Positions 50,398 through 64,000 of a stretch of 64,000 nt of DNA are shown in pieces; position 1 is the first letter of the stretch; each line of letters starts with the position of its first letter. The notes under the pieces are model-generated. The model worked only from the letters and a program-made list of their open reading frames with translations. It had not been told where the DNA came from and searched no databases. The stretch lies in assembly GCF_040729435.1 (NCBI RefSeq), contig NZ_CP160398.1, forward strand, positions 4,135,001 to 4,199,000, in the 5' to 3' direction. The DNA is from Pseudomonas sp. HOU2. GTDB lineage: Bacteria > Pseudomonadota > Gammaproteobacteria > Pseudomonadales > Pseudomonadaceae. Both the position numbers and the translations under genes were made by a program.

Positions 50398-53300
50398 TCA
50401 GCCCAGCATGCCCCTCATGCTCTGCTGCAACGAAGACTTGAGCGCTTCATCACTGGCTACCAGCCGGTAAAGCTCTAGGTCCTGGCGGCGGCGTATCAGC
50501 ATGACTTCCTCGAAAATCTTCTCGAACGCCAGTGCACGATGGTCTTCGTCCTGGCTCTTTTGGTACTTTGGCTCAAAGTCCGGATGTTCCTGAATGCCCT
50601 TTAGAATACTCAGGAACTTCACGCGCTTTTCTTCAGTGGTCACACCCCAGCCCTGGAACCAACGCTCGTTGAAGCTCTGGATGATTTGGTCAAGCGGGTC
50701 CTTTTCCTGCTCACCACCATGTACCCCACGCGGATTTGGGTTGGCTGGATCCAGCTCGGTTTCCACGTCATCCAACGCAATGCTGTGGTTCAACTTGACT
50801 CGTTCCAGCCCATAGGACGCGAGGTCAACCGAGTTAAGCAGAGCGTCGATTTCGTCGGCGTCTTTGTCCTGCACTTTGAGTTTCGGGATCAGGAACTTGA
50901 GGAACCAGAACAGCTTTTCCCAGGCCACAATCTCATACGGCATGATCGAGGCCATCTGGCCGTAGATCTTCACGAACTGCTTGGCCTTGATTTTGAAATC
51001 GACCTTGGCCTCATCCTCTAGCTCTAGTTCCACGTCGAAACGCTCAGTGGCGATATCGATCAGCACAGCCAGCTTTTCAGCATCGACGTTGTCGAAATAC
51101 TGCGTGGCAAATGCCTCTACTTCCGGCCACTCGTAGACGCCGACCTCGTCCAGCTGGTCCTTGAGTTCGTGCAGCACATTGATATCCGTTGCTCCGGACA
51201 GGCTGGTAGCCGTATAGAATGGGTCGAAGGAGGCTTTGATGTCCTCCACCTGGTTGAAGAAATCCAGAACGAAGAGGTCTTCGGTCTTCTTGCCCCACTT
51301 CGGCGCGGCTCGATTAAGGCGCGACAGCGCTTGCACTGCGAGTACGTACTGCAGCTTCTTGTCCACGTACATGGCACACAGCTTAGGCTGATCGAAGCCT
51401 GTCAGGTACTTGTTGGCCACCACCAGCAATCGGTATTCGTCGGTGTCGAATTTGTCTCGCGTATCCGCTTCGGGGAAGCGGTTGATGCCGGCTTCGGTGT
51501 ACTCGATACCATCAACCAATTTTTCGCCGGAGAAGGCAATTAGCGCCTTGAACGGGTTGCCGCGCGCTGCCAGCAAGCGGCTGATGGCCTTGTGATAACG
51601 GATGGCGGCTTCGATGTTTTGGGTTATGACCATGCCCTTGGCCTGGCCCTTGAGCTTTTTCGGCGTGACCACCTGCTCAATAAAATGCTCCAGCATCACC
51701 TCGGCCTTAACGTCGATGGTCTGCTGGTCGCGTTCGACATAGGCGCGTAGCTTCTTCTGTGCTTTCAGCGTGTCAAACAGCGGATTGTCCTCGATGGACT
51801 TCTGAATTTCGTAGTAGCTGCGGTACGTGGTGTAGTTGGCCAGCACATCGAGGATAAAGCCCTCTTCAATGGCCTGCTTCATCGAGTACAGGTGGAAGGG
51901 CGCGAAGCGGCCATCGGCCTGCTGCTCGCCGAACTTCTCCAGCGTGCTGTTCTTCGGCGTGGCGGTGAAGGCAAAGTACGAGGCATTGCCGCGCATCTTG
52001 CTGTTCTTGATGGCGCTGAGGATCTTCTCCTGAGTGTCGTCTTGCTCGTCGCCGCCCATCACCTTGTTCATCGTGCCGTGGCTGCTACCGTCCTGCGAGC
52101 TGTGTGCCTCGTCGATGATCACGGCAAAGCGTTTGCCGGCCATGTCGTCGATGCCATCCACGATCACCGGGAATTTCTGGATGGTGGTAATGATGATTTT
52201 TTTTCCCTGCTCCAGCGCCCGCTGGAGGTCAGAGGACTTCAGCGCCGGAGCGATGATGTTTTTTACCTCGGAGAACTCGCGTAGGTTCTCGCGCAATTGC
52301 TTGTCCAGCAGGCGGCGGTCGGTCACCACAATCACCGAGTCGAACAGCGGCACATCTAGAGCGCGCGCGCCGACAACGTCCAGTGAAGCCGGATAGGTTT
52401 CTATCAACTGATAGGCCGCCCAGGTGATGGAGTTCGATTTGCCCGAGCCGGCTGAGTGCTGAATCAGGTAGCGCTGACCCACGCCATGCTGGCTGGCATG
52501 CGTCACTAGGCGGCGCACCACATCCAGTTGGTGGTAGCGCGGGAAAAACAGCGTACGCTTGGCCAGTGGCATCTTGCTGCTGCCGTCCAGGCGCACAAAG
52601 TGTTGGATGATGTTGGCCACACTTTCGCGGCTGAAAATCTCCTGCCACAGGTAGGCGCTCTTGTGCCCGGCGGGGTTGGGCGGGTTACCAGCCCCGTGAT
52701 TGTGGCCTTTGTTGAATGGCAGGAAGAACGTCGCGACACCTGCCAACTTCGTGGTCATGTAGACCTCGTCGGTGTCTACCGTCATGTGCACTAGGCAGCG
52801 GCCGAATTGCAGCAACGGCTGGCCCGTGTCGCGGTTCTGCTTGTACTGCTTTTGCCCGTGATAACGGGCGTTCTGGCCCGTCCAGGGGTTCTTCAGCTCC
52901 AGCGTGGCGAAGGGCAAGCCATTGATAAACAGCACCAGGTCGATTTCTTCCAGTGGATTACTCATGGAGTAACGCACTTGGCGGGTGCTGCTAAAGATAT
53001 TCGCCGCAAACTGCTGTTTGACTCGCTCCGAACTGCTCGCAAGCGGCGCGGGGTACATCAGGTTAAGGTGCACGTCGTCGATGGCCAGGCCGCGCTTGAG
53101 CAGGTGCAGTACACCGTACTTCTTGGCCAGCCGGTCGAAGCGTTCGAGGATGCGTAGATCCCAGTCCTCGTAGCGCTGCTTGAGACGCTCAAGATCATCG
53201 CCTTGGCTGGCCTCAAAAAATTGCCACAAGCAACGGCTATCCACGGCATAGTGGGCATTGAAATCCTGAGCTCGACCCAGTCGATACCCGTGGTTGAGGG

Positions 53301-53409
53301 CCGCCGGCACCGCGCTGTCACGGACCAGCGCCTGCTCTTCTAGGCAAGTGCCGGTGAGGTATTTCTCGATGCTAGCTTCCAGCGCCTGTTCGTTGGTCTT
53401 GCTTACCAT
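50398..53409 (-). CDS. hsdR: Type I restriction enzyme R subunit HsdR
   Basis: HsdR, 1003 residues, is the translocase and endonuclease of a type I system; with HsdM2 and HsdS it cuts unmodified DNA after ATP-driven translocation. The N-terminal nuclease domain shows EIDLVLFINGLPFATLELKN near 153-172 (20 residues), with the Asp and ExK active site. Helicase motifs follow: SAGSGKSNS near 320, VVTDRRLL near 365, and IIDEAHSSQDG near 431-441. Start ATG 53409 has AAGGAAG six bases upstream. It is separated from hsdS by 228 bases that hold a 27-residue frame. Confidence 0.95.
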   Translation of the reverse strand: MVSKTNEQALEASIEKYLTGTCLEEQALVRDSAVPAALNHGYRLGRAQDFNAHYAVDSRCLWQFFEASQGDDLERLKQRYEDWDLRILERFDRLAKKYGVLHLLKRGLAIDDVHLNLMYPAPLASSSERVKQQFAANIFSSTRQVRYSMSNPLEEIDLVLFINGLPFATLELKNPWTGQNARYHGQKQYKQNRDTGQPLLQFGRCLVHMTVDTDEVYMTTKLAGVATFFLPFNKGHNHGAGNPPNPAGHKSAYLWQEIFSRESVANIIQHFVRLDGSSKMPLAKRTLFFPRYHQLDVVRRLVTHASQHGVGQRYLIQHSAGSGKSNSITWAAYQLIETYPASLDVVGARALDVPLFDSVIVVTDRRLLDKQLRENLREFSEVKNIIAPALKSSDLQRALEQGKKIIITTIQKFPVIVDGIDDMAGKRFAVIIDEAHSSQDGSSHGTMNKVMGGDEQDDTQEKILSAIKNSKMRGNASYFAFTATPKNSTLEKFGEQQADGRFAPFHLYSMKQAIEEGFILDVLANYTTYRSYYEIQKSIEDNPLFDTLKAQKKLRAYVERDQQTIDVKAEVMLEHFIEQVVTPKKLKGQAKGMVITQNIEAAIRYHKAISRLLAARGNPFKALIAFSGEKLVDGIEYTEAGINRFPEADTRDKFDTDEYRLLVVANKYLTGFDQPKLCAMYVDKKLQYVLAVQALSRLNRAAPKWGKKTEDLFVLDFFNQVEDIKASFDPFYTATSLSGATDINVLHELKDQLDEVGVYEWPEVEAFATQYFDNVDAEKLAVLIDIATERFDVELELEDEAKVDFKIKAKQFVKIYGQMASIMPYEIVAWEKLFWFLKFLIPKLKVQDKDADEIDALLNSVDLASYGLERVKLNHSIALDDVETELDPANPNPRGVHGGEQEKDPLDQIIQSFNERWFQGWGVTTEEKRVKFLSILKGIQEHPDFEPKYQKSQDEDHRALAFEKIFEEVMLIRRRQDLELYRLVASDEALKSSLQQSMRGMLG

Positions 53410-53554
53410 GCCGGCTTCCTTATGCCTGTTCTTTCTGCCAGGCTAGCCCGGCGCGGGGTGCAAATTTCTAAAACTGCCCAGCCAGCGGGGGTAGACATTC
53501 GTCGCTACCCACCTGACTTACCACTAACCCATTGATCCACTCGACAGCAAACAA

Positions 53555-53638
53555 TTAACAGAGCTGGCCGACAGCCTGCTGAATGTCTAACGGCTCGGCG
53601 TATTTGTCTAAGCACTGCAGTTGCTGCTGGGCATCCAT
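53555..53638 (-). CDS. 27-residue ORF overlapping the hsdS stop
   Basis: The frame reads MDAQQQLQCLDKYAEPLD and ends nine residues later (QQAVGQLC follow an Ile). Its ATG overlaps the hsdS TGA (TGATG), so it would be coupled to hsdS. It may be the stump of an accessory gene lost between hsdS and hsdR, or a real small protein. No family is recognised. Confidence 0.35.
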   Translation of the reverse strand: MDAQQQLQCLDKYAEPLDIQQAVGQLC

Positions 53639-54966
53639 CAGGCCACCTCCATATCTTGAGTCTCCGGCTCCGACACGCCCGGCACTTTGATCTTGCCGGT
53701 CACGGCGCTATTGATCAGGGTGACTTTGTATTCTTTGAGTTTGGTGATTTGTTGTTCAAGTAAATCGAGAGCTTTGTTCAGCTTCTCCGACTCAAGATCA
53801 AGGTGCGCCACTATTGCGTCCTGTTCCTCACGGTTTGGAAAACCAATTTCCATAGACATAAACATATGACCGTAAAAGCGCAAGCGTGAAGAGTGCAGGC
53901 CCGTTGAGACTTTGTTGTAGTGCGCAATATAAGTCGTAGTTTTCAGAAGCATCTCAAGGTACTGCGGATTTAATGTGCCGTGATTCAGCTGCCTGTAAAC
54001 CCCATAGGCCGAACTAACGATGCCAGCCCGATCAGAAACGCCAAGCGCGCCCATCCAGGCCCACATAATGTTGAATATAAGATCATCTTTCTGGCAAGTC
54101 TTTGATCCGGTGTAATCCTCAGACATAAACATTGTCACATTCTTTTCTGAGCGAGGCGTTACTCCAGTCAGATGAGAAACTGAGAGAAGCTCTTGCTGCC
54201 CGTCGGGGGAGCGCTCATCGACTTCGCGGAAAATATACTTGGCTCGCTTTATCGACCAATGCGACGGAATTTCGCCAATCCATTCGATATCGGAGTTCCG
54301 CATGGGTGCACGCGGATTAAGGCCGCGGGTTACGGCCTGCTGGATCAGTATCTGCTTGCGCTCCTTGAGTAGTTCGATCTGGCGTTCCTTGGTCTGAATC
54401 GCCTGATCAATTTGTGCAGTTTTAACAGATAAAAATCGAGCAATAAGCTTCTGTTCTTGAATTGGCGGGTTGAGTGATTTAAAAGCCAGAAATACATCCT
54501 TCGGAATGGTATTTCTCAAGCCTTTGTACAGAAACCTCAGTCGCTTTCCTGAGTCAAGACTTAGGTAAAGGTATTGAAGATATTCTTCATCGAATTTTCT
54601 GCGCGGCCGGAACACCGTGTAGGCGCCCGTTATCATTCCATGCAAAGAGGAAAGACCAATGGTTCTAGGCGTTTCCTCAACATCGAACAAGCAGAAAACA
54701 AAGTCGCCAGGAGTGACCTCTTGGTAGGTGTCAAACTCTGCGGGAAACTTTCCTTCTGGATTGTCCATGTCGCGTTTGATAATCCCGCCTAGAGTGAGCG
54801 ACAGAAGCGTATAACGATTGGAATTCTTGCCAACAAGATTTTTGTTAAGATCAAAAATGTACTTGTTTGCCAGGGTCTTCCAGTGTGCGGGAACACTTCC
54901 ATAGCACTCAACGCCGGAGTCACGATAGTTCTCATAGGTCGGGAAAGAGCCGAGAGATTTAGACAT
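53638..54966 (-). CDS. hsdS: Type I restriction specificity subunit HsdS
   Basis: HsdS, 442 residues, sets the DNA target of the methylase and restriction enzyme. Two target-recognition domains are visible, each opening with a similar phrase: GSVPAHWKTLANKYIF near 23-38 and GEIPSHWSIKRAKYIF near 234-249. Each ends in a helical spacer: QEQKLIARFLSVKTAQIDQA near 175-194 (20 residues) and REEQDAIVAHLDLESEKLN near 383-401. The target sequence cannot be read. The start at 54966 overlaps the hsdM stop by 8 bases. The base composition is AT-richer than the neighbours, as is usual for swapped specificity domains. Confidence 0.93.
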   Translation of the reverse strand: MSKSLGSFPTYENYRDSGVECYGSVPAHWKTLANKYIFDLNKNLVGKNSNRYTLLSLTLGGIIKRDMDNPEGKFPAEFDTYQEVTPGDFVFCLFDVEETPRTIGLSSLHGMITGAYTVFRPRRKFDEEYLQYLYLSLDSGKRLRFLYKGLRNTIPKDVFLAFKSLNPPIQEQKLIARFLSVKTAQIDQAIQTKERQIELLKERKQILIQQAVTRGLNPRAPMRNSDIEWIGEIPSHWSIKRAKYIFREVDERSPDGQQELLSVSHLTGVTPRSEKNVTMFMSEDYTGSKTCQKDDLIFNIMWAWMGALGVSDRAGIVSSAYGVYRQLNHGTLNPQYLEMLLKTTTYIAHYNKVSTGLHSSRLRFYGHMFMSMEIGFPNREEQDAIVAHLDLESEKLNKALDLLEQQITKLKEYKVTLINSAVTGKIKVPGVSEPETQDMEVA

Positions 54967-57373
54967 TGTTGACTCCAGAAACCTCGTCGAGAGGCACTCC
55001 CAAAATCTCCGCAATCAACCCTTCCGCCTGCTGCTCCAGCGCCACTATCTTCCGAGCCACTTCGTCCATGCTGCGCAGAGGTTGGTGCTTGTAGAAGTAT
55101 TTGTTGAAGCTGATCTCGTAGCCGATCTTCACCGACTCCAGATTGATCCAGGCCTCGGCGACATGGGGCACCACTTCGGCCTTGAAGAAGCGGTGGATGG
55201 AATCGGCCAGGGGGATGCTTTCGCTGTCGCGCAGGTCGCTATTGGATTCATAGGTAATAAATTCGCCGGTCCTGTCGCTGGGGTAGTAGCCGAAGTCCGG
55301 TAGGTCGGCCTCGCGGCAGTCCAGCCGCTCCAGCAGCGCGGCCAGCTCAGAGCGGTCAAATTTCTCCACCTTGCGGATGACCTTGGCGGCGTTTTCGTCG
55401 TACCAGCTCACTGCATTGAGCACCTGATTGCGCTCACTGGCACCGAGCTTGATGCTGGCCTCTTTACTCAGTTGTTTAAGCGCCTTGTCCACCTGTTTGG
55501 CGAACAGGTTGAAGTCGTCATATTCCTCGCTGCCGATGGCTTGCATCAGGTAGTTGGCCACGGTGACCAGCAGGGACTGCTTAGCCCATGTTTCCAGGCT
55601 CAGCAGCTTTTTGCGCTGCTTGGCGTTGAGCTCCAGGCCTTGTTCTTCACACCAGGTGAGGATGGCTTTTTCATGGGTGGTCAAGGTAGCGTCCTGATAC
55701 ACCGCCTCGCCCCACTCTTGGTAAATCCACTGCATGGGTTCGCGCAGAGCCTTATCGAAACGTAGGGTTTCGATGCGCTCGGCGCTGAACTGCGCCTTGC
55801 GCCGGTCTGGCCGTTCGATGCTGACCTTGTGGTAGCCGAAGTCGCGGTTATCAAACACCTGCGCGGCAATGCCGTCACCACCGGCCGGGCGGTCGCAGCT
55901 GGCCAGGTCGAGGTAGGTTTGGGTGATCTGCTCGATATGCTCGGGGGCAAATTCACAGTTTTTGTTGCCGAGGTTTTTGCGCAGTTTGCGGTAGAGCAGG
56001 CTGGCATCGATCAGTTGCACCTTACCTCGGCGCTGCGCCGGCTTATTGCTGGTGAGCAGCCAGATATAGGTGGTGATGCCGGTGTTGTAGAACAGATTGT
56101 TGGGCAACTGGATGATTGCATCAAGCAGGTCGTTTTCGATCAGGTGGCGGCGGATATTGCTCTCGCCACCACCGGCGTCGCCGGTAAACAGGCTGGAGCC
56201 GTTATGCACCGAGGCGATTCGCGAGCCGAGGCCGCTATCTCCGGGAGCTTTCATTTTGTTGACCATTTCCATCAGAAACAGCAACTGGCCGTCGCTGGAG
56301 CGCGGGGTGGCGTCCTGCAACTCGGCGTTGTCCCAATAGTCTGCGAGGCTAACCTTGAAGCGCGGATCGATCACGTCGCCGCCGTCTTTGATGAACTTCT
56401 GTTCGCTGGCCCAACTTTTACCGTAGGGCGGGTTGGACAGCATGAAGTCGAAGCGGCTGCCGGCAAATTCGTCCACCGAGAGGGTGGAGCCGGGGCGGAT
56501 GTGGGCAGGGTTGTTGCCCTTGATCATCATGTCCGACTTGCAAATGGCATAGGTCTCGTCGTTGATCTCCTTGCCATAGAGGTGAATGTCGCGCTGGATG
56601 GCCGAGTCCGGGTATTTTTCTTCGATAAAATTCTGCGACTCGGTGAGCATGCCGCCACTGCCGCAGGCCGGGTCGTAGATGGTCATCACGGTGGGCAGGC
56701 GGTCTTTGATCGGGTCGAAGACCAGGTGGGTCATCAGCTCGATCACTTCGCGCGGGGTGAAGTGCTCGCCGGCTTCCTCGTTGTTCTCTTCGTTGAACTT
56801 GCGGATCAGCTCTTCGAACACATAGCCCATGCCCAGGTTGCTCAGGGCTGGTAGGCGGTTGCCGTGCGGGTCTTCGCTGTCCTGCGGGGTGAGGTTGATG
56901 GTGGGCGAGGTGAATTTCTCAAGTACGTCAAGCAGCACGTCTTTGCTGGCCATGTGGCGCATCTGCGACTTGAGATTGAAGCGCCGGATGATGTCTTTGA
57001 CGTTGTCGCTAAAGCCGTCGAGGTATTCCTCAACGTTGCTCAGGAGGATCTGCTGGTTGTTGGTGGCGGTCTTCTGCAGTTGGCTTAGCGTCCACTTGCT
57101 GGTGTTGTAGAACACATAACCGGAAGCGGCACGCAGGGCGCTGTCGTCCAGTTCGGTCTGGCTCATTTCATTTTGCTGAAAGGCCAGCTCTTCCATTACC
57201 TTGACCTTGCTCGCCTCCAGCAGGGCATCGAGCCGGCGCAGCACCACCATAGGCAGGATGACGTCACGGTATTTTCCGCGCACATACACGTCGCGCAGGC
57301 AGTCGTCGGCAATCGACCAGATAAATGAAACCAGTTTGTTGTGGACCGCGTGGTTCAACTGCAGATACTCCAA
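54959..57373 (-). CDS. hsdM: Type I restriction modification subunit HsdM
   Basis: HsdM, about 800 residues, is the N6-adenine methyltransferase of the type I system. The helical N-terminal domain precedes EAGEHFTPREVIELMTHL near 191-208, the S-adenosylmethionine motif DPACGSGGML near 228-237, and the catalytic NPPYG near 310-314. The C-terminal 250 residues are longer than in E. coli HsdM. No ATG fits the N-terminus: a TTG at 57373 is the first start codon, and a TTG at 57358 has GGAG nine bases upstream and may be the true start. It is the first gene of hsdM-hsdS-hsdR, 233 bases after the OGFr-like gene. Confidence 0.93.
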   Translation of the reverse strand: MEYLQLNHAVHNKLVSFIWSIADDCLRDVYVRGKYRDVILPMVVLRRLDALLEASKVKVMEELAFQQNEMSQTELDDSALRAASGYVFYNTSKWTLSQLQKTATNNQQILLSNVEEYLDGFSDNVKDIIRRFNLKSQMRHMASKDVLLDVLEKFTSPTINLTPQDSEDPHGNRLPALSNLGMGYVFEELIRKFNEENNEEAGEHFTPREVIELMTHLVFDPIKDRLPTVMTIYDPACGSGGMLTESQNFIEEKYPDSAIQRDIHLYGKEINDETYAICKSDMMIKGNNPAHIRPGSTLSVDEFAGSRFDFMLSNPPYGKSWASEQKFIKDGGDVIDPRFKVSLADYWDNAELQDATPRSSDGQLLFLMEMVNKMKAPGDSGLGSRIASVHNGSSLFTGDAGGGESNIRRHLIENDLLDAIIQLPNNLFYNTGITTYIWLLTSNKPAQRRGKVQLIDASLLYRKLRKNLGNKNCEFAPEHIEQITQTYLDLASCDRPAGGDGIAAQVFDNRDFGYHKVSIERPDRRKAQFSAERIETLRFDKALREPMQWIYQEWGEAVYQDATLTTHEKAILTWCEEQGLELNAKQRKKLLSLETWAKQSLLVTVANYLMQAIGSEEYDDFNLFAKQVDKALKQLSKEASIKLGASERNQVLNAVSWYDENAAKVIRKVEKFDRSELAALLERLDCREADLPDFGYYPSDRTGEFITYESNSDLRDSESIPLADSIHRFFKAEVVPHVAEAWINLESVKIGYEISFNKYFYKHQPLRSMDEVARKIVALEQQAEGLIAEILGVPLDEVSGVNNV

Positions 57374-57606
57374 ATCAAAGCGCTGAATAGCAGCGCTGCT
57401 AGGGCGGCTTTACCGCACCCATGTGCAAGCTAAGGAGCGCATCATAACCAATGCAGCTGCGCTTTTGGCGGAGGTGAGGTAAGCGGATCGAACACACCTT
57501 CAGAACTCCAGCATTAAGGTCGACGATGGTTGAACACTTTAAGAAGGCGCCATGATGCTTGCTGAACGAGTCTAGGCTCCGCAGGTGGTGGTCTGCGGCG
57601 CGTATT

Positions 57607-58131
57607 TTATGAGGGGAGAGATAGCGCTTCACGCCAGAATCGTAACGGCACTTGATCGCATGGCTCACGCGTTTGGTGGATAACCTCTTCCAGGATGACG
57701 AACAGCCTCAGCGCCTGTGCCCGGTGACCCAGTAAGCACAACGATTTTAGGATGCGCGTCATTCGCAGGTCGTTGTGATTCTGCCTGAATGCCCAGTTCT
57801 GACTCCGGCTATCCCAGTCGCCTGATTTCTCGATCAGCCCTGACGCTTGCTGGCGTAAACCATAGAAACTCAGCATGCGACGCAGAGCGCGTCCTACTCC
57901 GCCTCTGACGCGCTCGTCGTTCGCTAGCTCGTCGAACTCGGCAAGGCTCGCCACTGGCGAGTGGCTGTTGAAAGCACTGGGCTCAGCCAGCGGAAACCAC
58001 CATTGTATGAAGTCATGTGTGCTTTCCAGAGTTCCATCATCCCAGGCCAATGCCTGGGCTAATGTACGCTGGCGATGGTCCATGCCATCGTAACCCAGAT
58101 AGTTGCGAATCAATTCTTTCGCACTCGCCAT
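57607..58131 (-). CDS. OGFr-domain protein
   Basis: A 174-residue protein with the conserved domain of the opioid growth factor receptor family (PF04664-like). The marker is FIQWWFPLAEPSAFN at 41-55, preceded by ALAWDDGTLESTHD at 27-40, which matches the family's phrase on a work-day-and-loop pattern. The domain is known in vertebrates but also scattered in bacteria and fungi, without a known molecular role. Its ATG (58131, GAGGG upstream) lies 12 bases after the macro-domain gene, so it ends the sirtuin operon. The rest is helical and charged. No catalytic motif is seen. Confidence 0.75.
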   Translation of the reverse strand: MASAKELIRNYLGYDGMDHRQRTLAQALAWDDGTLESTHDFIQWWFPLAEPSAFNSHSPVASLAEFDELANDERVRGGVGRALRRMLSFYGLRQQASGLIEKSGDWDSRSQNWAFRQNHNDLRMTRILKSLCLLGHRAQALRLFVILEEVIHQTREPCDQVPLRFWREALSLPS

Positions 58132-58143
58132 ACATTGCCCTCG

Positions 58144-59613
58144 TTACGCTTTATTGGCCACCAGTTCCAGCGCTTTACGGATGACATCAGGCGCTACTTC
58201 TGGTTGGTCTTGTGTTGTCCGCTGGAAGACAACGATAGTGATCTTTTTGCGACGCTGCCTATCAGCACCGTAACGAGCGGCCTCCGTCAACGCCAATACC
58301 AACCCGGCAATCGCCAACGATGGATCAATTCCACCGTGCCCGGCGCCTAGCACTGGCATGACCACTTCGTTGATCCGCTTGTCAGCAAGCAGCTCGAACA
58401 GTTCCTGCATACCATCGAATACGTAGGACATCCTGGCGGCAAGCCCTTGCCCGGCGCGCTGCGTGGTGGTGGAAACTAAGGCTATTGCGGCCGCGTTTTT
58501 CGAGGGGTCCGAAACAAGGATGGCTCGGCCGGGACCATAGCTTTCGCTAGACTCATCCATCGTCTTTTGTTGCTGCGTACCGACGCCAAAGCGCATCTGG
58601 CATTGCTGTCTGACAAGATCCGAGAATTCCGGCGCCGTATCGGGGCAATGCCGGTTGATATAAACGCCCAACGCACTCCGGGTATCGCGGGTGCAATAGT
58701 CTTCGAAATACTCATTGCAAGGTAATGCCACCACGGTTGTTTTCGCGTCCACCGGATGGTTTTCGATTCGCCCGGTGACGATGCTGATCTCACTCTCTCC
58801 GACGCTGGTACAGAAGCCGCCGGGGCATTCCCAGACATTGGTGGTATTGCCCTTTTGCTGCACGATACCTTCGATGAAATCACACAACACGCGGTGCTGA
58901 ATGGCCTGTGCATCCGCCGGCTTGGCGATGGAAAAATGATCTGACAACGGGACCTTTAGAGCATCGCCGAAATAGATGGCCCCACTGACCGGGGGCACGA
59001 CCTGTGCCAACCACAAAAAGCGCTTGAGCACCACGAACTGGTCTTCCACCAATTCCCGACCATAGATCACCAGCTTGCGGCTCATCAACACATTGCGAAA
59101 ATCGCTATTCAGATCGTTGAGCCAGACATTGTTCTGACAAAACGCCAACGCCTGGCCTTGAACATGCCCCATGAACTTTGCGATCGGCCCAAGCCAATTA
59201 GCATAGGACGAACCCAGTGAGGGAGAGGCGATCAGGAAAAGCCCAACTTCAGCACCACGCTCCACAAGGTCATCCAAGCGCTGCACGATATAGCGTCGGG
59301 CCACGATGCCACCCATGCTATGAGCAACGAAGACAATTTTCCGCGCCCTGTTGACACCATCGAGGTGCAGGCTTTCCTTCAATGCATCGACAACATCGCC
59401 TAGGCTGTAGGACCCGCTGAAGAACTCGGTGCGATAGGTGAACTCATAAATGCCCACGCTCCCTATAGCCGCGTGCTGGGAAAGCAGGTCCGGCCAGTAG
59501 GTTTTATTTTGATGACGCCAGCACGTTTCACCGTCGGACAGCACCCCATGCAGAAACACTACGGCCATCGGCGATGCCGTATCGTCCATTGCTCTGATCC
59601 AGCGCCCCTTCAT
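58144..59613 (-). CDS. Lipase-like alpha/beta hydrolase fused to a macro domain
   Basis: A 489-residue two-domain protein. Residues 15-250 form an alpha/beta hydrolase of the SERAC1/PGAP1/lipase kind: oxyanion loop FLHGVLSDGE at 20-29, nucleophile AHSMGG (Ser99), and the likely catalytic His in SDHFSIAKP (His226). Residues about 275-465 look like a macro domain, with VTGRIENHPVDA at 279-290 and VMPVLGAGHGGIDPSLA at 418-434, the ADP-ribose-binding loop. An ATG at 59643 exists, but 59613 has GAGAG seven bases upstream. It lies 37 bases after the sirtuin gene. It may act on O-acyl-ADP-ribose or ADP-ribosylated targets; this is inference. Confidence 0.75.
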   Translation of the reverse strand: MKGRWIRAMDDTASPMAVVFLHGVLSDGETCWRHQNKTYWPDLLSQHAAIGSVGIYEFTYRTEFFSGSYSLGDVVDALKESLHLDGVNRARKIVFVAHSMGGIVARRYIVQRLDDLVERGAEVGLFLIASPSLGSSYANWLGPIAKFMGHVQGQALAFCQNNVWLNDLNSDFRNVLMSRKLVIYGRELVEDQFVVLKRFLWLAQVVPPVSGAIYFGDALKVPLSDHFSIAKPADAQAIQHRVLCDFIEGIVQQKGNTTNVWECPGGFCTSVGESEISIVTGRIENHPVDAKTTVVALPCNEYFEDYCTRDTRSALGVYINRHCPDTAPEFSDLVRQQCQMRFGVGTQQQKTMDESSESYGPGRAILVSDPSKNAAAIALVSTTTQRAGQGLAARMSYVFDGMQELFELLADKRINEVVMPVLGAGHGGIDPSLAIAGLVLALTEAARYGADRQRRKKITIVVFQRTTQDQPEVAPDVIRKALELVANKA

Positions 59614-59650
59614 AGCGTTTCTCTCACGTCCATTTCCGTACATTCACGAA

Positions 59651-60418
59651 TCATAAAAAGGCGCAGTTAACCAATGCCGGTAAGGCGACTCCAGCCTTCC
59701 CCCGAACATTCCAGGTACAGACGCTGTCGAGCGCGGTTTTCTCTGGATTGATCTGGATAACTTTGCAGCCCGCCCGGCTCGCCTCTTTTGGAAGCCGAGC
59801 GGCAGGGTGAACATTGCCCGAGGTGCCCACCACGATGAGCAGATCGGATGAACTGGTTGATTTAAATGCCCTATCTAGCATGCCCTCAGGCAACAGTTCG
59901 TTGAACCATACGACGCCTGGCCTGACCTTACCTGCGCATGTCTGGCACTGGGGTGGCGACAAACGCCCGTCCCCCCCAGGCACCTCAGACAGGCTGTCCA
60001 CCAACGAGAACGGGCTCGCGCACTCGAAGCACCGCGGATGGTGAAGACTGCCGTGAAGATGCTGCACATCGGTGCTTCCGGCACGCTCATGCAGATCGTC
60101 GACGTTCTGGGTAAACAATGTAAGTTGCGGGACACGGCGAGCAAGCTCGGAGATGGCCACATGAGCGGCATTAGGCCGCGCCGCAAGAACCTGCGCGCGC
60201 CGCCACTCGTACCAGCCCCACACCAAGGCAGGATCGCGCCGGAACGCTTCGGGCGTGGCAAGCTTCTCGGCGTCGAAATTCGCCCAAAGCCCGGTCAGTG
60301 CATCGCGGAACGTCGGAATACCGCTTTCAGCGGATACACCCGCTCCTGTCAATACGGTGATCTTTTGCGCACCTTGCAGTGCCGTGATTAATTCGGGATC
60401 AAAATCGGTGAAGTCCAT
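59651..60418 (-). CDS. Sir2-family NAD-dependent protein deacylase
   Basis: A 255-residue sirtuin. GAGVSAESGIPTFR at 25-38 binds NAD, TQNVDDLHERAG at 103-114 and catalytic His122 (HLHGS) are intact, and a zinc is held by Cys130/133 and Cys158/161. Tyr70 and Arg73 (YEWR) form the YxxR pair that marks class III sirtuins able to remove succinyl groups, as in CobB and SIRT5. It would release nicotinamide and O-acyl-ADP-ribose. The start at 60418 follows AAAGGTG; the frame is open upstream through non-coding DNA. It heads an operon with the hydrolase-macro and OGFr genes. Confidence 0.92.
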   Translation of the reverse strand: MDFTDFDPELITALQGAQKITVLTGAGVSAESGIPTFRDALTGLWANFDAEKLATPEAFRRDPALVWGWYEWRRAQVLAARPNAAHVAISELARRVPQLTLFTQNVDDLHERAGSTDVQHLHGSLHHPRCFECASPFSLVDSLSEVPGGDGRLSPPQCQTCAGKVRPGVVWFNELLPEGMLDRAFKSTSSSDLLIVVGTSGNVHPAARLPKEASRAGCKVIQINPEKTALDSVCTWNVRGKAGVALPALVNCAFL

Positions 60419-60440
60419 GGCACCTTTCTGACGGCCTACT

Positions 60441-60554
60441 CCACGTGACCAGCACGTGGCGCTAACCGAATCAGTCCTTGGGATGAGCGGGGTTCGACCT
60501 GACAATACGAAACCAGAACGCTTCTGGCTCCTAAAATTCCAGAGCCGAATTTTA
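60441..60554. promoter_or_regulatory. Three inverted repeats upstream of the sirtuin gene
   Basis: CCACGTG-ACCAG-CACGTGG at 60441-60459, CCAGAA-CGC-TTCTGG at 60513-60527 and TAAAATTC-7-GAATTTTA at 60532-60554 are all perfect dyads within 140 bases of the sirtuin start. They are candidate operators or hairpins in the leader. The rest of this 541-base gap holds the MITE-like element and about 190 bases in which nothing is recognised. Confidence 0.4.
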
Positions 60555-60584
60555 CGTACAACCACGAAATAAAAAAGCCCCTTA

Positions 60585-60771
60585 GGTTGTGTACGAAAGG
60601 TTCTGAAACGCAGGTTCGGCAAGGCGAAAACCAGTGAGGAAGCGGACTGGGCCCGCTCTCGGTTGACTGGTTGCCAGTGAGCTTTCCGACCCGGTCGCGT
60701 CCGACCTGGCTCGCGATCGAGCCTGTTTTCAAAGCGGCATTGGTGAACTCGGATGCATTTCGTACAGAGCC
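60585..60771. mobile_element. MITE-like element with TA flanks
   Basis: Ends GGTTGTGTACGAAAGG (60585-60600) and, inverted, GGCTCTGTACGAAATG (60756-60771) match at 13 of 16 positions. Both sides are flanked by TA (60583-60584 and 60772-60773), as expected for a TA target duplication by an IS630- or IS5-like transposase. At about 187 bp it has no room for a transposase. Short frames inside are not considered genes. The family is not identified. Confidence 0.55.
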
Positions 60772-60959
60772 TAGAGCTTACAGCGACGAGTTGGATCATT
60801 GGGCACATACCCGCCCGCGACTGTTCAGCCCTGCGGTCGACCTGAAACGCCAGCCAACTGTGCCCATGATGCTCAAGCAAGTATCGAAGCGGCGAAATGG
60901 AATAAAGCCAGCGATTGGGAGGGAATGACGCAACAGATCCGTGCTTTGAGCGCACGCCA

Positions 60960-62777
60960 TCATTCCTGACATATCACGCATCCGAAGGCTCCGACCTCCG
61001 TACAGGCAGCAAAGAAAGACGACAGTAACCAATAGAGCTGGACGAAGTAGGGGCTGGCGCTGTGACCCGCTTTGATGTCCTCAAAAGCTTGCTCAACTGC
61101 GGCCTTGCTCAGGGATGAGGTCACGATGGCCACCCGTTTGAAGGTGTGAGGGGCATTCCTGCAAAACTCCACTGCAGTTCGAGAATCTGCGGTTGTGCCT
61201 CGGCATGTGCGATGAATGCCTGTTTTTACCCTGTTGTTGGTATAAAGCCGATTCCATCGCGCGAATTTCTTGGTCATGGCCGGCGCGGGCAAATTGAGAT
61301 TGCCCAGGTTTTTGATAGCCTGGCTGACAGAAACGTGGAACGCGCTCGCGCCGAGAGTCAACTCCCCGTGCTTGGCATGGTAGAAGGTGATTCTTGGAGA
61401 GGCTGGATCCGTTCGGAAGCCAATGAAATCAGCCCATTCGTCACCAAGATCATCGCAGACCATAACATCGTCTTCGGGCGCGACCGTCGATAGTACTGCG
61501 CCGAACGTGGAGTCAAGATCGAACGTATGATGGACAGCGGTAAAGGCACCTTTCTCGTCCGTGACAGTAGCCAGCTCTGCATTGCCGAAGAGGTAGCCCA
61601 GGAACTGATTGCCACCGTTCACCAAGGAGTCGTCCTGGTAAAGGTTGCCGTCCAGATAGGCAAAGCGAGGCTGGTCGAACAGGACAATGTACGTGTCTTC
61701 TTTGTCGATGAACTGCTTAAGCAGAACGCGACCTTCGTCCGCTCCTAGAGCGAACTGTGTGTCCTCGACATAGACATCGGCGAGCAGAGGTAGCGTGAGG
61801 CGTTTCAAAGCGATTCGCGTTTTGTTGATCGCGAGTTCGCCCACTTCGACGCCTGTTGCAAGCTGGGACACGAGTAGTTTGCCGGCGGCGTTTTTGGCAA
61901 CTCCCAAGATGTCTGTCAACTCTGCGAGTATCGGATCGACTTCTACCTTTGGCAGCTCTCGATAGCCACCTCCGTCCCGCTTGACCAAACGAATAACTTT
62001 GTCGTCAAAGATGGCCTGTCCGAGGATGGCGGTATCAACCGCAAATTGGGTAGGGCTAGCCGTCAGATCCGATAGCTCCAGCGGTCGGGCGAAAGCTGCC
62101 AGAAAAGGGGAGGACGATGGCCTTCCAGGTCGAGGGTGCAGGCGGTCAATGATACTGCAGGCATAGTCCACCAGTTCCAGGTAGCCAGCACGATCCGCTC
62201 GAAGTGAAATCCGGCCGGTTCGCGGTGTTGTTGAGAAGTGCTCGTCCGCCTCTGTGAAGCTGTAACCCAGCGGGGCAAATCGAGCCGAGGAGGCCATGCC
62301 CACGTTGTTCTGGAGGTTCTCGCCCTCAAGTGTCTTGCTGCGCAATGCAAAGCGGGACAACGTCATATGGCGTAGCCGAACCCGGGCAAATACTGAATCC
62401 TTGCTAGTGAGTCCACGGTCAACATCTTGGGAGCTGATGCGCTGCAGGTGCCGCTTGGTGAAATCTGCGGGGACGTCGATCTGGGATTTGAAAATGGCGA
62501 CGTAATCACGGTGCTCGACGATCAGCAAATATCCGGTTACTCGGTCGATCACGTCGTCAGCCTCAGGTAGGAAAGCTGGTGTCTTGTCGAATTGAAAGCA
62601 TAGAGCAGACCAGATTGATGCCCCGTGGGCCTGCCGTATGAAAGAGAATAGGTTGTTCGAGGGAGATGTGTGAGCACATCTGATCGCCCGGAACAACGCC
62701 GTGATTGCGCCCATTGTGATCGGAGCTTTTCGGCGATAGAAGTAGCAGGATTTGCTGGCTTGAAGCTCATCGATCAT
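60960..62777 (-). CDS. 605-residue protein with possible PD-(D/E)XK-like C-terminal domain
   Basis: The family is not recognised with certainty. The N-terminal 430 residues have no clear motif and no membrane segments. Residues 441-470 read CDDLGDEWADFIGF, a short gap, then ITFYHAKH. This Asp/Glu ... YHAK pattern resembles the nuclease-type domain at the C-terminus of some DEAD/DEAH-helicase restriction proteins (GEIADF ... YHCK). The end, with QLYWLLSSFFAACTEVGAFG, also recalls that domain. Start ATG 62777 has AGGGA about ten bases upstream. It lies 541 bases before the sirtuin operon on the same strand. It might be an effector nuclease; this is weakly supported. Confidence 0.45.
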   Translation of the reverse strand: MIDELQASKSCYFYRRKAPITMGAITALFRAIRCAHTSPSNNLFSFIRQAHGASIWSALCFQFDKTPAFLPEADDVIDRVTGYLLIVEHRDYVAIFKSQIDVPADFTKRHLQRISSQDVDRGLTSKDSVFARVRLRHMTLSRFALRSKTLEGENLQNNVGMASSARFAPLGYSFTEADEHFSTTPRTGRISLRADRAGYLELVDYACSIIDRLHPRPGRPSSSPFLAAFARPLELSDLTASPTQFAVDTAILGQAIFDDKVIRLVKRDGGGYRELPKVEVDPILAELTDILGVAKNAAGKLLVSQLATGVEVGELAINKTRIALKRLTLPLLADVYVEDTQFALGADEGRVLLKQFIDKEDTYIVLFDQPRFAYLDGNLYQDDSLVNGGNQFLGYLFGNAELATVTDEKGAFTAVHHTFDLDSTFGAVLSTVAPEDDVMVCDDLGDEWADFIGFRTDPASPRITFYHAKHGELTLGASAFHVSVSQAIKNLGNLNLPAPAMTKKFARWNRLYTNNRVKTGIHRTCRGTTADSRTAVEFCRNAPHTFKRVAIVTSSLSKAAVEQAFEDIKAGHSASPYFVQLYWLLSSFFAACTEVGAFGCVICQE

Positions 62778-62990
62778 GTCCGTTTCCCTACGGCAAGGGG
62801 TAAAACGTGGAGTCCATCAACTCGATGAGGGTAGCCCAATGCCACTAAGACTGTATAGATGGATACGCTTTAACAGAGCATGGCTGCTTGCGAGCAATCA
62901 TAGGCTGACATGAAGGACTGCTAATGGTGGATTACTTCCTGTAATGACTGACCGGTTTGGATCGTCTGTAGTCGGTCGTGACTATCAAAA

Positions 62991-63278
62991 TCAGATCCTC
63001 TCTCTGGGGGGCAAAGTCCATGATTTTTCTAAACGACGAACGATCAGCCGCACGGTCAGCAAATAGTAATACCGCGTCGCGTCGCTGCGTCGATCTAGGC
63101 GATGTTCAAGGAACCAAGCCACATGCTTTCTCTGCCAAGCCCAAGGCGTTTTTCGCTGCCAGCGCTCTGCAATTTCAGTCTGGATGATTTTCGCCTGTCG
63201 CACATGGCGTTGCCGGGTTGCGTGCGAGCCGGTCAGCACGCCAGCCAAAAACAGCTCCATATCGAATGGCTTACTCAT
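62991..63278 (-). CDS. Small integrase-partner protein
   Basis: A 95-residue, strongly basic helical protein. The pattern ATRQRHVRQAKIIQTEIAER near 20-39 (20 residues) followed by WQRKHVAWFLEHRLD is like the SAM-like N-terminal domain of phage integrases (PF12834 type), here as a separate product. The ATG at 63278 overlaps the integrase stop (ATGA) and has GGAGG seven bases upstream, so the two are co-translated. It may assist DNA binding of the recombinase. Confidence 0.6.
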   Translation of the reverse strand: MSKPFDMELFLAGVLTGSHATRQRHVRQAKIIQTEIAERWQRKTPWAWQRKHVAWFLEHRLDRRSDATRYYYLLTVRLIVRRLEKSWTLPPRERI

Positions 63279-64000
63279 GACCACCCTCCAATGTACGCGG
63301 CGACCACGTCGATCCGCCCGTGCCCCAGCTCATAGCTGATTTGTCTTCGGGCCTGACGATCAAGGTTCTTGTCTACATGACCACCGTTGATAGGGGAGCG
63401 GTGTTGGGTGATTTGTTCATAGCGCTCACACGCGTACGCCGCTCGCAGCTCATGGAAGCCTTTGAGGTTGTGTGCATGCAGGATGTGCCGTGCAGGCCGG
63501 ACGACTTCCTTCACAACGTTCAGGTAATTTTCATTTGGGGCAATCAGGTTGCGGCTACCGGCAGGCGACACTTGCCGTGCAAACCCAAGTGCACGTCGAA
63601 CAATCTCGTCCACCGCAATCCAACGTGGCGCCGAGGCGCCGGCGCGGCCGCCTTTGGTGCCATCCTGAATGTTAATCCTGCCTTGGTCGTTAGCCTCACG
63701 GCTTAGCCGAGGCAGGTCGGCCAAGATAGCCTCACGCAAGCGCATGCCGGTGGCTCTTGCCAACAGGACGATCGCGGCGGCCCGTCTCTGGTCACGACTG
63801 CAAAGCGCATCGACGATCTGCATAACCTGCTTGCGGTCCTGACCCTGTGGCACCCACTGACGAACACCGTTGCGCTGCATACCCAGCGCCTTGCTCGGGC
63901 TGGACAATTTCACGCACTGATCACCGCGAAGCGCCGCCATGGTCCTGTTAACGCTGGATAGCCGGTTTTGTGCGGTGCTGACGGCGAGGTCACCGCGCCC
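63275..64000 (-). CDS. Tyrosine recombinase/integrase, 5' end outside window
   Basis: The C-terminal 241 residues of a tyrosine recombinase of the Integrase_1 (PF12835-like) kind. The frame is open to the last base, so the gene continues to the right; the ATG at 63940 is probably internal. Catalytic-type residues are visible: Arg in ATGMRLREA, His-x-x-Arg in FHELRAAY, and ELGHGRIDVVAAY with a closing Tyr. It probably moves the island. Its stop overlaps the start of the small partner gene. Confidence 0.8.
   Translation of the reverse strand, partial: GRGDLAVSTAQNRLSSVNRTMAALRGDQCVKLSSPSKALGMQRNGVRQWVPQGQDRKQVMQIVDALCSRDQRRAAAIVLLARATGMRLREAILADLPRLSREANDQGRINIQDGTKGGRAGASAPRWIAVDEIVRRALGFARQVSPAGSRNLIAPNENYLNVVKEVVRPARHILHAHNLKGFHELRAAYACERYEQITQHRSPINGGHVDKNLDRQARRQISYELGHGRIDVVAAYIGGWS

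Follow-up and report, generated by a model that had tools for sequence, protein, structure and literature searches.

A recurrent sirtuin, hydrolase–macro and OGFr gene cassette from Pseudomonas and Aquabacterium with a possible role in NAD-linked phage defence

Near the right-hand end of a 64,000-nucleotide stretch of the Pseudomonas sp. HOU2 genome (assembly GCF_040729435.1, contig NZ_CP160398.1, positions 4,135,001 to 4,199,000; hereafter the window), three intact genes without internal stops lie together on the minus strand, separated by gaps of 37 and 12 nt. They encode a sirtuin, a protein in which an alpha/beta-hydrolase is joined to a predicted macro domain, and a protein with an OGFr_N domain. 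A preliminary description of this DNA had proposed the same minus-strand layout and spacing, which the coordinates and intact open reading frames (ORFs) confirm. The trio is very probably a co-inherited cassette, and its neighbourhood and the modular build of its proteins suggest that, on balance, it is a defence system. Its working is more tentative: we put at roughly 45% the probability that the trio is a phage-defence system in which a ligand derived from nicotinamide adenine dinucleotide (NAD) would gate a lipase-like effector. The features discussed here are as follows.

59651–60418, minus strand: sirtuin gene, 255 aa (Pfam SIR2, E = 3e-50, 171 bits).
58144–59613, minus strand: hydrolase–macro fusion gene, 489 aa, with full-length relatives in four other species.
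58864–59613, minus strand: alpha/beta-hydrolase half of the fusion, residues 1–250, lipase/esterase-like, with Ser99, His226 and a possible acid, Glu190.
58147–58830, minus strand: predicted ThsA-type macro half of the fusion, residues 262–489, from PF20016 and hhalign.
57607–58131, minus strand: gene for the OGFr_N-domain protein, 174 aa (PF04664, E = 5e-22, 78.9 bits against a cut-off of 22).
60419–60970, minus strand: leader upstream of the sirtuin gene, presumed promoter region, from blastn against the other loci.

A pattern-based scan of 84,980 species genomes with the 489-aa protein returned six loci beyond the window. Four of these, in Pseudomonas cuatrocienegasensis, P. lactucae, P. 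gessardii and Aquabacterium commune, encode a full-length hydrolase–macro protein, and in all four a sirtuin gene precedes it and an OGFr gene follows it, in the same order and on the same strand. Because order and spacing recur in four of four other intact loci (gaps of 33–39 nt and 12–14 nt across the five trio loci), the arrangement is more than chance. Homologues that rarely occur together would have counted against the preliminary description; the whole trio is instead present in 5/5 intact hydrolase–macro loci (the window and four others). In the Acidovorax locus (L031), a DDE transposase gene separates the hydrolase and macro halves, and no sirtuin or OGFr gene was detected there at E 1e-4. 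The Sphingomonas locus matches in the hydrolase half only and has a different C terminus.

When the window was compared with the four full-length loci by blastn, DNA similarity ended at or near the trio, the leader and a stretch downstream of the trio in P. lactucae excepted. The alignment with P. lactucae (57463–60970, 94% identity) takes in the leader and about 145 bp downstream, and P. cuatrocienegasensis has the nearest 160 bp of the leader in common with the window. The three proteins track one another in their amino-acid identity to the window (69–96% for the sirtuin, 74–96% for hydrolase–macro and 65–90% for OGFr). The guanine–cytosine (GC) content of the trio is steady at 0.55–0.57, with flanks ranging from 0.52 to 0.66. 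In P. gessardii, the trio lies directly behind the tRNA-Ser gene of a purC–tRNA site, a site at which it was found in none of 30 Pseudomonas loci, taken from 30 of 59 genomes (the window's own genome included; the sequence compared extended 1.5 kb beyond the site, except in one short locus with about 0.5 kb). The conserved order, unrelated flanks, parallel identities, GC content and P. gessardii site together indicate a cassette that is transferred whole. As judged by Ka/Ks, the trio genes are under purifying selection (0.15–0.22 for the sirtuin, 0.12–0.27 for hydrolase–macro and 0.10–0.42 for OGFr, the last from nine of ten pairs, one being saturated).

In scans of related genomes, the macro half was found in two of 398 genomes of the phylum (its own and a weak partial match) and in two of 249 genomes of the genus (its own and one taken to be the P. 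gessardii record already listed, and so not counted as a further member). The whole 489-aa protein found matches in 15 of 369 genomes of the class including its own, all except its own in the hydrolase half only. OGFr_N turned up in 6 of 144 relatives and in 2 of the 369 class genomes, both counts including its own. A tblastn search near 12 non-trio OGFr loci and nine hydrolase-only loci revealed no other trio partner, which argues that the combination is specific to the cassette and that its domains also live apart. By tblastn, the macro half had no match in plasmids and the hydrolase–macro protein none in phage records, and blastn of the trio against E. coli genomes gave no match.

The middle protein as a whole matches Abhydrolase_6 (E = 1e-8) and ThsA_Macro (E = 1e-5, 25.3 bits against a cut-off of 25) in Pfam. 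An in-frame ATG farther upstream would yield a 499-aa protein; this ATG is present in P. cuatrocienegasensis and absent from the other three relatives, and for that reason the 489-aa start was used. Scanned on its own, the macro half scores 27.7 bits against PF20016 (ThsA_Macro, cut-off 25), and 6/6 relatives match this family at E 0.01 or better (best E = 5e-7). Hhalign aligned it to seven ThsA-type macro domains over 181 columns (E = 3e-5, probability 72.9), pairing LPCNEYF with VGCNTTF and PVLGAGHGG with PILGSGFSR (ThsA second in each pair). In E. coli ThsA, residues N114, S217, G218 and T220 contact ADP-ribose (PMC11204291), and these four would fall in the two aligned loops. The profile matches are consistent with a predicted macro domain of the Thoeris ThsA type at residues 262–489. 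DarG models also match residues 393–430 (PADLOC, E = 8e-6; NCBIfam, 25 bits, far below the cut-off of 250).

In the hydrolase half, Ser99 and His226 occur in 20/20 aligned hydrolase sequences, the trio proteins included, and Glu190 in 16/20, suggesting catalytic roles for these residues. Ser99 of the hydrolase and His122 of the sirtuin stand at the positions first noted for them. The AlphaFold2 model has a predicted local distance difference test score (pLDDT) mostly of 78–91 over much of residues 1–130, with weaker stretches, and is poorer beyond; against the PDB, it matched dehalogenases, thioesterases, lipases, esterases and one bacterial phospholipase. Ten non-trio relatives of the hydrolase were scanned with Pfam and PADLOC, six of which carry a partner part and four no recognised partner. 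AAA-type NTPase matches were found in three relatives (L057, L058 and L060, with L058 alone above a cut-off), NTPase and TPR matches in another (L059), and a GTPase-associated adaptor domain (GAAD) in L015 (E = 2e-18). On a Lelliottia plasmid (L108:3971-8080), a hydrolase of this kind is joined to the defence protein PD-Lambda-4_A (PADLOC, E = 2e-183), and 3 of 20 plasmid hydrolase relatives are annotated as ABC-three-component proteins. With its NTPase, TPR, GAAD or PD-Lambda-4 partners swapped in this way, the hydrolase looks like an effector, and its wider family looks like one of conflict-system effectors. Upstream of the broken Acidovorax gene, an ORF at L031:6297-7547 has a weak PADLOC match to 'Effector Phospholipase' (E = 1e-6).

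A profile of the five trio sirtuins matched archaeal Sir2 (1ici, E = 5e-76) and sirtuin-5 (E = 5e-55) in the PDB. The motifs GAGxSxxSGIPxFR, TQNxD and HG (HLHG, His122) and the cysteines C130/C133/C158/C161, which we take to be the canonical deacylase set, are invariant in 5/5 trio sirtuins. The sirtuin also has Y70xxR73, presumably the YxxR acyl-preference motif (class III) of SIRT5. In NCBIfam, it scores 284 bits against a deacylase subfamily (cut-off 243) and 252.8 bits against the CobB equivalog, below that model's own cut-off of 320; its best PADLOC SIR2 match has an E of 0.07. By motif and profile, the trio sirtuin is a canonical zinc-type, sirtuin-5-like SIR2 deacylase. The class M sirtuins (SirTM) carry QG in place of the catalytic HG (PMC4518038), and we reject a SirTM identity because HG is kept in all five trio sirtuins.

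The preliminary description had named identity with the species' housekeeping CobB as something that would refute it. This is unlikely, since the host genome (6.05 Mb, single contig) has a second SIR2 gene elsewhere (G000:C1:995769), by eye a clearly different protein, and the trio sirtuin moves with its partners. Trio sirtuins are 67–96% identical to one another, and relatives in 99 of 99 plasmid records fall below 60%; this comparison is with plasmid sirtuins alone, and the CobB question is to that extent settled in part. Four plasmid records among the best 30 of 99 (H27, H29, H30 and H32) showed no adjoining gene annotated as hydrolase, macro or OGFr, several neighbours being annotated 'hypothetical protein'.

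OGFr_N takes its name from the opioid growth factor receptor of animals, and we know of no established biochemical role for it. Its relatives elsewhere connect it to ADP-ribose. In a genome of the same order (G095), a 636-aa protein (L055:6565-8475) joins OGFr_N (residues 302–418) to NADAR (residues 481–628, E = 1e-24), and a second OGFr_N gene lies 24 nt downstream of this fusion. NADAR is an established ADP-ribose domain (named in PMC9503650). Viral scans with single sequences gave no relatives, and a scan of IMG/VR with an OGFr alignment gave 26 loci, 11 of them in contigs longer than 200 kb. Four loci that nearly duplicated others, and one whose ORF was not clear, were set aside, leaving 21 (among which L120 and L122 also resemble each other). 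A 240-kb contig among them encodes a NADAR–OGFr_N fusion in the order opposite to that of G095 (L130:4350-5483, NADAR E = 4e-38). On two related viral contigs (L131:3617-7129 and L140:3605-7193, neighbours about 60% identical), OGFr lies between a phosphoribosyl pyrophosphate synthetase gene and a PARP gene; in the PDB, the L131 neighbours match ribose-phosphate pyrophosphokinase (E = 6e-71) and PARP1 (E = 3e-16). In a further contig (L135), a NADAR match lies about 4.3 kb from OGFr, and the other 17 of 21 loci show no NADAR- or PARP-type neighbour among the Pfam matches listed (25 of 58 families; 105 of 113 neighbours).

Taken without a matched large-phage background, the viral neighbourhoods are suggestive of a link between OGFr and ADP-ribose, and the two OGFr_N/NADAR fusions are stronger evidence. 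OGFr relatives also occur in phage records: one in an uncultured 595-kb phage (LR756511.1, E = 5e-15), and a weak one in Xanthomonas phage XacN1 (AP018399.1, E = 5e-3). An OGFr model found no fold match in the PDB (best E = 1.7), and the OGFr profile reached a best E of 0.2 against PDB sequences. The third protein had been described as having no known activity; its family links to ADP-ribose enzymes (NADAR fusions, Prs–OGFr–PARP) improve on that statement. Through these NADAR and PARP links, together with the sirtuin and the macro domain, all three trio proteins point to ADP-ribose chemistry.

Known or candidate defence genes adjoin the trio in three of five loci. In the window, a type I restriction system and a PDC-S71 gene lie beside it; in P. 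lactucae, AAA ATPase, ZorA-like and ZorB-like genes follow downstream (L028:10386-15463), with a WYL gene also nearby; and in P. cuatrocienegasensis, the neighbours are a HEC-09/NYN gene and an integrase gene. The P. gessardii trio is flanked by purC–tRNA-Ser and an OprD porin gene, and the Aquabacterium trio by a radical-SAM gene and two ORFs that Pfam assigns to no family.

If the trio is a ligand-gated defence system, infection would lead the sirtuin, either prompted by the OGFr protein or working alongside it, to shift the level of an NAD-derived ligand, for which ADP-ribose, O-acyl-ADP-ribose or an ADP-ribosylated target are candidates. Binding of this ligand by the macro domain would switch on the lipase-like hydrolase, which might then cut lipids or another ester or thioester, so that the infected cell is stopped. 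Overall, the scheme would be that of Thoeris with a macro-type ThsA, in which the sirtuin replaces the TIR protein and the hydrolase replaces the membrane effector. The analogy with ThsA and the modularity of the hydrolase family suggest that the macro domain would be the sensor and the hydrolase the effector; the sirtuin may make or remove the ligand, and OGFr may tie the system to an ADP-ribosylated cue. A bolder version would see here a new class of immune signalling by NAD derivatives: in place of a TIR protein, a deacylase sirtuin would supply O-acyl-ADP-ribose or ADP-ribose, the macro domain would read it and the lipase would fire, with OGFr_N as an ADP-ribose-linked module common to bacterial defence and large phages. 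We consider this extended claim unlikely; if right, it would give OGFr_N a first testable biochemical role.

Several observations weigh against the ligand-gated reading. The asparagine of CNEYF, in the first ADP-ribose loop, is an aspartate in P. lactucae, and AlphaFold2 run from an eight-row alignment gave a pLDDT below 50 across nearly all of residues 274–489. To our knowledge, a canonical deacylase sirtuin is not a maker of second messengers. Of the ORFs flanking the P. gessardii and Aquabacterium trios, the three scanned with PADLOC gave no defence match. A sirtuin or hydrolase–macro partner is present at 0 of 12 bacterial non-trio OGFr_N loci, and the NADAR domain of G095, searched for in the other bacterial OGFr loci, matched none, giving one of 12 loci with NADAR in all. 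The cassette family is also rare, and the five loci amount to about three independent lineages because three of the five members are close to each other (89–96% identity per protein).

Some of the same evidence could instead describe an on/off switch by ADP-ribosylation, in which the sirtuin or a partner modifies a target (perhaps the hydrolase or OGFr) and the macro domain then strips off or recognises that modification, much as in SirTM–macrodomain systems or DarTG. Operons that pair a sirtuin with a macro domain in this way are known (PMC4518038, PMC9503650), the fusions of OGFr_N to NADAR and its position beside PARP would suit such a switch, and so would the DarG matches within the macro half. 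The trio sirtuin, however, has HG rather than the QG of SirTM and resembles deacylases, and the macro domain is nearest to ThsA, in which the conformation of the distal ribose differs from that in hydrolytic MacroD (PMC11204291); we regard the switch as improbable. The preliminary description had favoured a metabolic relay, in which the sirtuin would make O-acyl-ADP-ribose, the macro domain hold it and the esterase half strip its acyl group. Sirtuin deacylases do produce this ester (PMC9503650), and an esterase–macro fusion would suit it. Against this, the hydrolase half also occurs in proteins where no macro domain was found and whose other parts are NTPase, TPR, GAAD or PD-Lambda-4, a distribution that does not tie its chemistry to ADP-ribose esters, and the effector-like family favours a sensor–effector arrangement over an O-acyl-ADP-ribose esterase. 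We hold the relay to be quite unlikely; that first interpretation is partly supported, its co-occurrence being borne out.

The deacylase could also act on the hydrolase directly. Were NAD+ plentiful, the sirtuin would deacylate and silence the hydrolase, and loss of NAD+ on infection would free it, the macro domain sensing ADP-ribose from other enzymes. The trio deacylase retains its catalytic residues, and NAD+ depletion is a well-known mode of defence; we think such a guard decidedly unlikely. The Acidovorax hydrolase–macro gene, with no sirtuin or OGFr detected beside it but broken by a transposase, fits either direction. Least likely, in our estimate, is that the trio is non-defence cargo, a stress or metabolic cassette riding on islands. 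The two of five loci with no defence gene seen beside them (few ORFs scanned) would agree with cargo; the effector-like hydrolase family and the defence or candidate defence genes next to the other three loci speak against it.

The surroundings of the trio in the window resemble a genomic island. The GC content is 0.61 over 1–48000 and 0.555 over 50398–63940. Upstream of the trio, a 605-aa protein (60960–62777, minus strand) matches the PADLOC candidate defence family PDC-S71 (E = 3e-107); it has no Pfam family above cut-off, and no homologue was detected at the other trio loci. Downstream lie genes for HsdM, HsdS and HsdR, a type I restriction system, and to the right an integrase-like gene, so the restriction and integrase neighbours are as had been claimed. 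Beyond the window, a tyrosine integrase gene adjoins a tmRNA gene (L062:1200-3032), and this full integrase and tmRNA site probably marks one attachment end of the island. No convincing copy of the tmRNA-end repeat was seen in the window, a DNA search for the island's left boundary did not locate it, no repeats clearly mark the cassette ends, and Rfam gave no match over 57300–64000. The island proposed in the preliminary description is thus supported in part, on its right, by the integrase and tmRNA genes.

If the ligand-gated reading is true, NAD-linked immunity would gain a layout with an ordinary-looking deacylase sirtuin in its alarm and a lipase as its weapon. OGFr_N would be placed in ADP-ribose biology, and each of its links to that biology could be tested with purified protein. 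The open-licence literature searched held no paper combining 'ogfr', 'macro domain' and 'sirtuin', and no title or abstract opening there pointed to such a make-up; the available text of the 2022 survey in Viruses on NAD–ADP-ribose systems (PMC9503650) does not mention 'OGFr'.

Among the closest known systems is Thoeris with a transmembrane–macro ThsA, whose macro domain senses an NAD-derived ligand. The trio macro belongs to the same Pfam family (PF20016) and is likewise fused to an N-terminal effector. Its N-terminal half, however, is an alpha/beta-hydrolase by profile rather than a transmembrane region, the trio adds a deacylase sirtuin and an OGFr protein, and no TIR (ThsB) match was found in the eight window proteins scanned (the trio and five neighbours). 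With no TIR match among these eight proteins and, by domain matches, no transmembrane effector half, membership in Thoeris was rejected. As in SirTM–macrodomain operons, a sirtuin gene adjoins a macro-domain gene on the same strand in all five trio loci, but the trio keeps HG, has no GcvH-L or lipoate ligase, and pairs a ThsA-type macro, fused to a hydrolase, with an OGFr partner. The short DarG-like match in the macro domain and the link of OGFr_N to NADAR elsewhere recall DarTG and DarT–NADAR, whereas no DarT-type transferase match was found in the trio or the five scanned neighbours.

Defence-associated sirtuins include SIR2 NADases such as ThsA-SIR2 and DSR2. The trio also places a SIR2 fold in a mobile, defence-rich setting, but its sirtuin is a compact deacylase of the zinc type, like sirtuin-5 and CobB. 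The alpha/beta-hydrolase conflict effectors linked to ABC-3C, GAAD, NTPase and PD-Lambda-4 contain an N-terminal hydrolase homologous to that of the trio, Ser/His pair included; in the trio this hydrolase is fused to a macro domain instead. The domains of the trio are of known kinds; what appears to be new is how they are combined and that OGFr_N is linked to ADP-ribose. The trio probably belongs with the NAD- and ADP-ribose-linked conflict systems.

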